From positions 1-64,000 of the forward strand of contig OMZO01000019.1 of assembly GCA_900315525.1 (NCBI GenBank): DNA of 64,000 nt, written 5' to 3'. The notes under the pieces are model-generated. The model worked only from the letters and a program-made list of their open reading frames with translations, did no database searches and was not told where the DNA came from. How positions within the stretch are numbered: position 1 is the stretch's first letter; each line of letters opens with the position of its first letter. The DNA is from an uncultured Prevotella sp. GTDB taxonomy: Bacteria > Bacteroidota > Bacteroidia > Bacteroidales > Bacteroidaceae. Made by a program: the position numbers and the translations under genes. Positions 47,889 through 49,571 of this stretch are shown one piece after another.

Positions 47889-47970
47889 CGACTTTTTTTG
47901 GTAATCGGCCTTTTTTTGTGCCTTTAATTTTATTTAAAGCCGTGTAGATCCGTGCCTAAATATATGCCTT

Positions 47971-48026
47971 GCGACACGATTCAGCCCCCTCGTCGGTGCT
48001 TTGTCGCAGATCGCCGCCCCTGTCGC
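47971..48026 (+). promoter_or_regulatory. TGTCGC motif array upstream of peptide copy 1
   Basis: Inverted GCGACA at 47971-47976, then TGTCGC at 48002-48007 and 48021-48026 (start-to-start spacing 31 and 19). The same three words with the same spacings occur before peptide copy 2. Located 54 bases before the -7 box. Possibly an operator. Confidence 0.5.
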
Positions 48027-48055
48027 CACAACCTCAGCCGAAAGTCCCCCAAATA

Positions 48056-48087
48056 TTTGCGTATCCCCCAAACTCGCCGTACCTTTG
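48056..48087 (+). promoter_or_regulatory. Peptide copy 1 promoter, TTTG-N20-TACCTTTG
   Basis: TTTG (48056-48059) and TACCTTTG (48080-48087), spacing 20, 53 bases before the ATG. Confidence 0.65.
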
Positions 48088-48103
48088 CATCGTCAAAAGG
48101 ACA

Positions 48104-48143
48104 ATTAATCAACAGTATAAACATTAAAAATTATAAGATTATG
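48104..48143 (+). repeat. Conserved 5-prime untranslated block, copy 1
   Basis: These 40 bases, ending in the ATG, are identical to 49316-49355. Part of the duplication that made the peptide pair. Confidence 0.9.
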
Positions 48144-48341
48144 AAGAAATTTTTATTGATAGAGACAACGCTTCTGAGTGCATTTGTTGCAGTATTAATG
48201 GTATGTGCATCCTTGTCAACGAGTCATGACGACACCATTTCTGCAGAGATCGACGTGCAGACCAGCGCCCAGGGCGCAACCCATGCTTCGACTTCTTATC
48301 ATAGTATTTATAAATTAGGTGGAGTCTATCCCGAACCATAA
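48141..48341 (+). CDS. Secreted or membrane-anchored small peptide, copy 1
   Basis: 66 residues. N-terminal hydrophobic stretch MKKFLLIETTLLSAFVAVLMVC, a variable hydrophilic linker (about 27-39), and a C-terminal block that begins QTSAQGATHA and ends YKLGGVYPEP (residues 40-66). The paralogue at 49353 has an identical 27-residue C-terminus. The N-terminus could be a signal peptide (processed near CAS) or a membrane anchor; the lipobox (LMVC) is poor because Gly/Ala is missing before Cys. The tail is rich in Ser/Thr/Tyr/Gly and would be exported. The start ATG 48141 is supported by a promoter and a 5-prime region conserved in both copies. No homologue or function recognised; I do not know what it does. 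Confidence 0.7.
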   Translation: MKKFLLIETTLLSAFVAVLMVCASLSTSHDDTISAEIDVQTSAQGATHASTSYHSIYKLGGVYPEP

Positions 48342-48356
48342 GGATACATTCCCCTT
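48258..48356 (+). repeat. 99-bp identical block, copy 1
   Basis: Covers the peptide C-terminus (27 codons), stop and 15 bases after it, and is identical to 49473-49571. It contains the palindrome GCGCCCAGGGCGC near its start. The linker coding region just upstream differs between the copies, so identity stops sharply at the block edge. Confidence 0.95.
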
Positions 48357-48382
48357 TTTATGGAATTTGCCAAAATAAAAGA

Positions 48383-48414
48383 GAGTTGACCTGTTAAAAT
48401 TAACCAGCCAACTC
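48383..48414. terminator. Imperfect hairpin between peptide 1 and the convergent lipoprotein
   Basis: GAGTTG.../...CAACTC with an inner TTAA/TTAA pairing and three mismatches. No long T-run follows, so its role in termination is uncertain. Confidence 0.35.
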
Positions 48415-48451
48415 ACTTACTTAAATCTTATGATTAGATAAATCGAGAGAT

Positions 48452-49015
48452 TTAATTAATTGCATCCTCAAATGACAGTAAGTTACCTTTACTGTCATAT
48501 ACCCCACTATTAAGTATTGCCGTACCACTTATTGTATGTTGAACACGTGTTATCTCATGCTCTAAAAGGAGATCATTGATTTGAATAGTCATTTCCATAC
48601 TTGTAATGCGTTTGATAGTAATATCCCCTTCAAGATCTCTCCAGTCATAGGTATTAACACTAATCTCAGTTGGTCTTCTAAATTCTTGAACTGAAAGTCT
48701 GTTAATGCCAAACACTTCACCTTCTTTTAGTTCTGAAACTTTGGATGGGGATATGTGTACCGTCAATTCATGACCTTTAAGTGGGAAATTGGGGTCAGTT
48801 ACAGCATTTACACATAAGTACATTCCATTTCTTTTTGTCTGCTCTGCCGTACAATTTACAGCATAGAATGATTCCCCATCCACTTTCATCGTCATCTGTC
48901 CTTTAGACGGATTACCACCATTGATCTCATCATCATCACTACTACCACTACACGTACTAGAACTTAATGCCACCATCATGGTCAGCATCATAATAGTTGA
49001 AAAAATCTTCTTCAT
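48452..49015 (-). CDS. Lipoprotein between the two peptide genes
   Basis: 187 residues. Signal sequence MKKIFSTIMMLTMMVALSSS then TC (Cys22), an acidic linker (SGSSDDDE), and a beta-rich domain (about 38-187) starting MTMKVDGESFYAVNC, with CVNAVTDPNFPLKGHELTVHISP. It resembles the DUF6252-type lipoproteins with a 'DGxxFxA' opening, but I cannot be sure. It faces peptide 1 (convergent) and lies back to back with peptide 2. A -7 box at 49045-49052. It may be linked to the peptides, but the sequence alone gives no direct link. Confidence 0.75.
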   Translation of the reverse strand: MKKIFSTIMMLTMMVALSSSTCSGSSDDDEINGGNPSKGQMTMKVDGESFYAVNCTAEQTKRNGMYLCVNAVTDPNFPLKGHELTVHISPSKVSELKEGEVFGINRLSVQEFRRPTEISVNTYDWRDLEGDITIKRITSMEMTIQINDLLLEHEITRVQHTISGTAILNSGVYDSKGNLLSFEDAIN

Positions 49016-49044
49016 ATTTTAATCTTGTTAATAGAATTAGAATG

Positions 49045-49052
49045 CAAAGGTA
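49045..49052 (-). promoter_or_regulatory. -7 box of the lipoprotein gene
   Basis: Minus strand TACCTTTG, 29 bases before the start codon. Confidence 0.5.
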
Positions 49053-49171
49053 GACAATAATCTTGAGAAAAACGAATCTTGCATAGAAAAGTTTATGTTG
49101 GAGGTCATTTGAGTTTGATGATGTCGCTCCATCTTATTGTGGAATAGCAAGCGTAAAAACAAAATTAATTT

Positions 49172-49227
49172 GCGACACACCTCCACCCCTTCGCCGGCAC
49201 TTTGTCGCAGATCCCTGCCCCTGTCGC
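49172..49227 (+). promoter_or_regulatory. TGTCGC motif array upstream of peptide copy 2
   Basis: GCGACA at 49172-49177, TGTCGC at 49203-49208 and 49222-49227: same orientation and spacing (31, 19) as copy 1. Between the words the two regions differ, which favours constraint on the words. Confidence 0.5.
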
Positions 49228-49256
49228 CACAACCTTAGGTAAATGTCTGCTAAATA

Positions 49257-49288
49257 TTTCTCCATCTCCCAAAACCGCCGTACCTTTG
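49257..49288 (+). promoter_or_regulatory. Peptide copy 2 promoter
   Basis: TTTC (49257-49260) and TACCTTTG (49281-49288), spacing 20. The -33 word is one base off TTTG. It ends 64 bases before the ATG. Confidence 0.55.
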
Positions 49289-49315
49289 CATCGTCGATAA
49301 GACAAAACGATATTA

Positions 49316-49355
49316 ATTAATCAACAGTATAAACATTAAAAATTATAAGATTATG
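49316..49355 (+). repeat. Conserved 5-prime untranslated block, copy 2
   Basis: 40 bases identical to 48104-48143, ending in the first ATG. Confidence 0.9.
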
Positions 49356-49556
49356 ATGAAGAAGTTTTTATTGATAGAGACGACGCTTTTGAGCGCATTT
49401 ATCGCAGTTTTAATGACATGTGCATCCTTGTCAACCAACAATAGTGACGAAAACCTTGCAGTCAATGACATACAGACCAGCGCCCAGGGCGCAACCCATG
49501 CTTCGACTTCTTATCATAGTATTTATAAATTAGGTGGAGTCTATCCCGAACCATAA
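49353..49556 (+). CDS. Secreted or membrane-anchored small peptide, copy 2
   Basis: 67 residues, with an extra Met at the start compared with copy 1 (ATGATG). N-terminal FLLIETTLLSAFIAVLMTC, linker of about 15 residues (TNNSDENLAVND) that differs from copy 1, and a C-terminal 27-residue block identical in protein and DNA to copy 1. The hydrophobic segment ends in C-A-S. The gene ends 21 bases before the yifB stop on the other strand. As with copy 1 the role is unknown. The pair look like precursor proteins with a conserved mature part; a structural or lipid-modified peptide is equally possible. Confidence 0.7.
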   Translation: MMKKFLLIETTLLSAFIAVLMTCASLSTNNSDENLAVNDIQTSAQGATHASTSYHSIYKLGGVYPEP

Positions 49557-49571
49557 GGATACATTCCCCTT
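49473..49571 (+). repeat. 99-bp identical block, copy 2
   Basis: Identical to 48258-48356. It ends 6 bases before the yifB stop codon at 49578. Confidence 0.95.

Follow-up and report, generated by a model that had tools for sequence, protein, structure and literature searches.

A tandem pair of small precursor genes in Prevotella carries a predicted three-box promoter in common with double-glycine peptide and type VI secretion genes

Introduction

The Phr/RRNPP precursors of Firmicutes are short Sec-type peptides in which a variable middle part is followed by a conserved, active C-terminus. The NVEALA-type peptides of Bacteroides are likewise made as small precursors, in Bacteroidales, and have a conserved C-terminal motif. 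To our knowledge, peptide signalling in Bacteroidetes has been little described.

Loci for bacteroidetocins and for type VI secretion are known from the same phylum. According to the accessible text of PMC6671954, bacteroidetocin loci hold a transporter, a transmembrane protein and mostly a thiol oxidoreductase. For Bacteroidales type VI secretion system (T6SS) loci, the accessible text of a 2016 survey gives TetR/AcrR regulators predicted nearby, and the word "promoter" is absent from its main text (PMC4714493).

Here, we analyzed a 64,000-nucleotide stretch (the window) of an uncultured Prevotella sp. (GCA_900315525.1, contig OMZO01000019.1, positions 1 to 64,000), in which an initial annotation made from the sequence alone had noted a duplicated gene for a small, putatively secreted peptide. 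The window is contig C94 of its own genome (G000), a 3.16-Mb assembly that is 93% complete. Other genomes (G), contigs (C) and loci (L) are given by our own handles where needed.

Results

Two small precursor genes are repeated in tandem

We found both open reading frames (ORFs) where the initial annotation had placed them, with 66 and 67 codons (Table 1). The layout that it had described for them, a hydrophobic N-terminus, a variable linker and an invariant tail, was confirmed. The upstream and leader DNA is also repeated, as had been claimed: the 136-bp upstream region is 79% identical between the copies, and a 46-bp stretch covering leader and start (48103-48148 versus 49315-49360) is 98% identical. 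The pair is best explained as a tandem duplication of a unit made up of three-box promoter, leader and small precursor gene. A 187-aa lipoprotein-like gene (48452-49015, minus strand) is located between both peptide genes. It has no family match over the cut-off in Pfam or NCBIfam and, by eye, is absent at the loci of the two homologues described below (G087 and G352).

Table 1 Features of the peptide gene pair (window positions) and hairpin units elsewhere in the same genome.
Feature	Position	Strand	Remark
Inverted box TTGCGACA, promoter 1	47969-47976	+	sequence
Promoter 1, TTTGTCGCA-N13-GTCGC and -7 box TACCTTTG (48080-48087)	48000-48087	+	0 mismatches
5' leader, gene 1	48088-48140	+	sequence comparison
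Peptide gene 1	48141-48341	+	66 aa
Predicted Sec signal segment, gene 1	48141-48209	+	predicted cut after invariant Ala; alignment and hydropathy
99-bp tract, copy 1	48258-48356	+	identical to 49473-49571; homogenised
13-residue constrained tail HSIYKLGGVYPEP, gene 1	48300-48338	+	substitution counts against G087
Inverted box TTGCGACA, promoter 2	49170-49177	+	sequence
Promoter 2, identical boxes and -7 box TACCTTTG (49281-49288)	49201-49288	+	0 mismatches
5' leader, gene 2	49289-49352	+	sequence
Peptide gene 2	49353-49556	+	67 aa
Predicted Sec signal segment, gene 2	49353-49424	+	predicted; alignment and hydropathy
99-bp tract, copy 2	49473-49571	+	identical to 48258-48356
13-residue constrained tail HSIYKLGGVYPEP, gene 2	49515-49553	+	substitution counts
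Hairpin units in G000	C93:25427, 28101; C15:54780, 59335, 60596; C84:24132, 25524; C53:41459		

The precursor is arranged in the order two lysines, hydrophobic stretch, Ala24, free linker and tail. In an alignment of all four family members, K3, K4, A24, S27 and the PEP end were invariant, and the residue at position -3 to a cut after Ala24 was T, V, S and S. The hydrophobic maximum of the four members is 1.9-2.3 as an 18-residue mean. A Glu at position 9 is also invariant and lies inside the hydrophobic stretch, which is unusual for a signal peptide and counts against the Sec reading. The predicted mature part is acidic, with a net charge of -4, -3, -1 and -1 in the four members. Cys23 is not conserved: the window copies have it, but G087 has Phe and G352 has Ser at this position. 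We therefore rejected the reading of the window peptides as lipoproteins. Their Gly-Gly sits 5 residues before the end, and there is no double-glycine leader.

Homogenisation and constraint act on different parts of the identical block

The DNA identity that the initial annotation had reported, running past the stop codon, is exact, and at 99 bp it is the longest identical stretch between the copies. The 27-residue block within it had been ascribed to either strong constraint or gene conversion. Nei-Gojobori counts by segment, made between the window copies and between the window and G087, showed that both apply, conversion to the first 14 residues and constraint to the last 13. Between the copies, none of the 19 synonymous sites in the block has changed, as against a pS of 0.38 in the N-terminal part and 0.81 in the linker, which indicates homogenisation or recent recombination. 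In the comparison with G087, residues 1-14 of the block differ with a pN of 0.47 and a pS of 0.68, whereas 3 synonymous and 0 nonsynonymous changes were counted over the final 13 residues (HSIYKLGGVYPEP). The constrained tail is therefore the last 13 residues only, in an analysis that rests on one informative species pair because the family was found in three genomes only. Residues 1-14 of the block are identical in the window through homogenisation of the paralogues. The N-terminal segment (pN 0.18-0.21, pS 0.55-0.56 against G087) is moderately constrained.

The peptide family is small

A first genus-wide protein search gave weak matches in 63 of 200 genomes at E up to 1, three of which were inspected. 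A three-row profile then matched in 41 of 398 same-genus genomes at E up to 0.1, with at most 15 candidates scored per genome. We accepted the family in 3 of the 398, own genome included (2 of 397 others). Homologues thus do exist outside the own genome, in two other species, with a single copy in each; the expectation of many genomes with 2-10 copies was not borne out. The third family copy (G087:C116:18269) is 64% identical. The fourth member (G352:C5:124169; 57 aa; profile E 7.9e-8) is more distant. It retains KKFL..ET.L.SA..A, Ala24, Ser27 and the ending L..ISPEP, of which only L..[VI].PEP is common to the family, and it was accepted because leader, promoter and ending match.

Several candidates were rejected. 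A 40% match in G124 overlaps a larger ORF on the opposite strand, and one in G006 sits within a larger ORF. The matches in G232 (4e-4) and G110 (8e-4) are confined to positions 1-44 and turned out to be the N-termini of lipoprotein-like proteins of 125 and 237 aa. The remaining profile matches were dropped on E-value, apart from one in G150, which was inspected at its locus.

Searches beyond the genus set added little. The genome contig collection gave one match, in the rumen MAG RUG069, which is probably the same genome as G087, while the plasmid and phage collections gave none. Among viral contigs, 600 stretches fitted the pattern and none was confirmed as a family member. As the initial annotation had stated, no known family fits: Pfam and NCBIfam gave weak or sub-threshold matches only, and the best PHROGs match (E = 0.0035) was to a group of unknown function and covered the N-terminus only. 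Judged by eye, the family genes lie next to the 187-aa lipoprotein-like gene in the own genome, Skp/OmpH-like genes in G087 and a hydrolase-like lipoprotein gene in G352; since these differ, no partner gene is conserved.

A three-box element with fixed spacing precedes the family genes

Searching the own genome by blastn with 191 bp of upstream DNA led to the promoter element, and double-glycine-leader peptides were found downstream of several matches. A 59-bp stretch, 48085-48143, is 97% identical to the one before the double-glycine peptide gene on contig C9. The full element reads TTTGTCGCA-N13-GTCGC-N53-TANNTTTG and is present at both window genes, where the Bacteroidetes -7 box TANNTTTG lies 80 bp from the start of TTTGTCGCA-N13-GTCGC. 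The TGTCGC-type motifs noted as repeated by the initial annotation are thus part of an element of fixed spacing, which has 2 matches in the window and 0 in 100 dinucleotide shuffles. The direct repeats have a period of 19 bp. All four family peptide genes carry the element.

The spacing was consistent. The -7 box was exactly at +80 in 18 of 21 distinct matches, at +81 in one and absent in two; the input was 22 of 30 element matches, after 8 with two mismatches had been set aside by eye, and a single site accounted for two of the 22. Across genomes, the intervening sequence varies, but not the boxes, their spacing or the -7 box. An inverted CGACA box is located about 27 bp upstream of the first direct box at both window genes. 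The search pattern did not contain CGACA, yet in 134 of 147 distinct instances of the promoter it precedes the first direct box by 26-28 bp. Because it is kept outside the search pattern, it lends independent support to a putative protein-binding site.

The element is widespread in Prevotella

At up to 3 mismatches, the own genome contains 24 matches to the element, and the reversed control gave 0. At up to 1 mismatch, it is carried by 88 of 398 same-genus genomes, own included, with none from the reversed control among the matches listed. In a set of 100 relatives searched at up to 2 mismatches, 17 were positive, counting the own genome. Of these, 16 were among the 60 relatives of the genus and one was among the 40 from elsewhere in the order, the latter being at the level of the 2 control matches. 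Judged from its sequence, the element is a genus-wide promoter in Prevotella, and its link to double-glycine peptides and type VI genes is the stronger clue to function. A literature search on the three-box motif (TTTGTCGC, and TGTCGCA with Prevotella), made mostly outside subscription literature, found no paper on the motif in Bacteroidetes.

Some copies are decayed. One of the 24 own matches (C28:4768-4855) is a promoter fragment that lacks the -7 box and is antisense to a 68-aa ORF. Another site, C15:95938 (L297), is a broken duplicate of the double-glycine unit on C47, in which the promoter start and the leader are fused. This indicates that the element also spreads by recombination, with units duplicating and decaying.

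Genes downstream of the element

To characterize the genes under the element, we surveyed 154 distinct promoters (own genome at up to 3 mismatches, others at up to 1), which cover only part of those in the genus count. First ORFs of at least 90 aa were found at 79 and classified at 77 after two duplicates were dropped; the ORFs were chosen mechanically and some may not be genes. Of these 77, 11 encoded TssD, one TssC, 10 PepSY_like proteins and 4 Peptidase_C11 (clostripain-type) proteins, so that 26 fell into four themed families. A further three encoded Cache-sensor proteins. One additional promoter-linked ORF was phage-hub (GPD)-like. Many units were seemingly off theme or had no recognizable product, with a Dcu transporter, topoisomerase III, MATE and EamA among the genes, and the theme is therefore a trend and not a rule.

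In the own genome, the targets include four double-glycine peptides (C9, C47, C55 and C89), a 43-aa peptide (C11), TssD on C35 and C65 and TssC on C65 (all Pfam-confirmed), and a TssD on C34 that is 98% identical to that on C35. The rest of a T6SS was recognized by eye around C65. A Dcu transporter, a MATE pump and a DUF6563 protein were also found.

The Cache-sensor proteins under the promoter are at L229, L246 and L291. Others are encoded next to the C11 peptide that is linked to the promoter (L147) and within the T6SS region on C65 (L183:4775-6292). A SpoIIE phosphatase domain was over the cut-off in L183 and L246, weak in L229 and not found in L147, where the frame is cut by the end of the locus.

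Ten ORFs with a double-glycine leader lay within the 330-bp zones downstream of the promoters (78,296 strand-bases) and 0 elsewhere in 2,171,316 strand-bases, in a scan that counted overlapping loci repeatedly, covered DNA mostly chosen for its promoter and used an ORF pattern that misses the broken C15:95938 unit. A profile search of the own genome for such peptides gave five matches that are not independent, four having trained the profile and the fifth being the same broken unit, so that the zone scan is the stronger of the two tests. The NCBIfam leader models TIGR01847 and TIGR03949 were over their cut-offs on one of three double-glycine peptides tested. By eye, the predicted cores of the promoter-linked double-glycine peptides are 5-31 residues long. 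A C-terminal pentapeptide, RRWCM, is common to the double-glycine peptides of L194 and L092/L105, which are from different genomes, and makes up the whole predicted core in one.

Other units lack an evident ORF. Eight own promoters have a GC-rich hairpin of the GGGCYYGCAGTGATGCRGGCCC type no more than about 120 bp downstream (Table 1). These units may encode small RNAs or be what is left of peptide units; Rfam gave no match in the seven loci scanned. A similar hairpin lies 3' of the 43-aa peptide gene on C11, and there is none at C93:28444.

We also observed two micropeptide families under the promoter. One ends in ..YGTLR/YAALR/YGALR (L155, L171 and L193, from G001 and G364), the other in ..PSMYTRHWYGYFAY (L158, L236 and L258, from G019, G363 and G182). 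Both combine a hydrophobic or amphipathic start with a fixed tail, as in the window pair.

Association with type VI genes, regulator and transporter

Among 200 genomes (G000-G199), the promoter was found in 11 of the 15 with an own-like TssC versus 35 of 185 others (Fisher p = 2e-5), where the subtype was set by E-value after the fact and the statistics ignore phylogeny. For any TssC the association was weaker (12 of 31 versus 34 of 169, p = 0.025).

In Gram-positives, bacteriocin regulons are driven from direct repeats that lie far upstream, and for this reason LytTR proteins were suspected as the regulator. The AgrA/PlnC repeats have a period of 21. The period of 19 bp seen here speaks against LytTR, and so does gene location, as none of the 5 LytTR genes in the own genome shares a contig with any of the 24 promoters. 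The Cache-sensor/SpoIIE targets were rejected as they are not DNA-binding. No regulator was found.

The own genome, in its 93% complete assembly, has a single C39 peptidase match (C36:24516), at a contig end. By eye, its neighbours are another ABC-like ORF and HlyD/TolC-like ORFs. The stretch examined around it on C36 contains no promoter match.

Discussion

The reading that we favor, and to which we give about even chances, is that the pair encodes Sec-exported precursors with a functional extracellular C-terminal tail, within a Prevotella regulon that joins peptide export and type VI antagonism. The precursor would be exported by the Sec pathway, as suggested by its N-terminal hydrophobic segment, the invariant Ala24 and the small residue at -3, and would then be processed. 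The active part would lie at the C-terminus, in the 13-residue tail ending in PEP. A putative activator probably binds the TGCGACA / TTTGTCGCA / GTCGC boxes at a fixed distance from a normal Bacteroidetes promoter, and would turn on the pair together with double-glycine micropeptides, type VI tube and sheath genes, exported proteases and PepSY-like proteins. Given the shared putative activator site, the peptides would belong to a competition or population-sensing programme. The tail would most likely work outside the cell, as a signal or an antagonistic peptide. The three-box promoter that these genes carry suggests a shared control circuit for competing with neighbours. A further step, in which the PEP tails and the promoter-linked micropeptides are pheromones of an undescribed Prevotella communication system, the promoter is its output, and type VI antagonism is turned on along with the signals in response to population density or kin, is speculative and in our view distinctly doubtful.

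The peptides could instead be single-span envelope or membrane proteins, with an uncleaved anchor and a periplasmic tail that docks on an envelope or type VI component. The hydrophobic maximum of 1.9-2.3 over 18 residues, with the invariant Glu inside it, would suit such an anchor, and the promoter-linked MKLT...YGALR and MKKY...YGYFAY peptides also have conserved ends and the look of short membrane or amphipathic peptides. We consider it somewhat unlikely, however, as Ala at -1 and T/V/S/S at -3 fit signal peptidase I, and the linker is free in both length and sequence, which suits a discarded spacer. A bacteriocin or toxin, or a hydrophobic peptide like those of type I toxins, in place of a signal would agree with tandem, homogenised copies and with a promoter common to double-glycine (bacteriocin-type) leaders and T6SS genes. 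The loci have no immunity-like neighbour in common by eye, and the predicted mature part is acidic, so we regard this as unlikely.

It is very improbable that the boxes are merely a dispersed repeat, spread by recombination, with no regulatory meaning. The decayed copies at C28:4768, with no -7 box, and C15:95938, a broken C47 duplicate, would be expected of such a repeat, as would the 59-bp stretch that different peptide genes have in common at 97%. Across genomes, however, only the boxes, their spacing and the -7 box are kept, the first genes are themed, and the reversed control gave 0.

Compared with described systems, the window peptides under the favored reading are closest in plan to the Phr/RRNPP precursors, with a predicted Sec-type N-terminus and a C-terminal end that is conserved by alignment and substitution counts. 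They differ in phylum, in a tail of 13 constrained residues, and in having a shared regulon promoter in place of a receptor operon; no adjacent receptor was recognized by eye in the neighbourhoods of the family loci. From the NVEALA-type peptides they differ in the tail, and they have no Pfam or NCBIfam match above threshold. With double-glycine peptides (bacteroidetocins, ComC/BlpC and class IIb bacteriocins) the likeness is that of small exported peptides, in Bacteroidetes, under a promoter common to the window pair. The LxxxELxxVxGG-type leader is absent from the window peptides, whereas ten promoter-linked peptides have it. Unlike in bacteroidetocin loci, the own genome's only C39 match is on a separate contig, C36. 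As in the Bacteroidales type VI loci surveyed previously (PMC4714493), TssC and TssD are present here, and they are promoter-linked. On how these loci are controlled, the accessible text of that survey gives a predicted TetR role and nothing more. The promoter described here, which a pattern search detects in 88 of 398 genus genomes, ties the T6SS tube genes to many unannotated micropeptides and makes both questions, type VI control and peptide signalling, testable.
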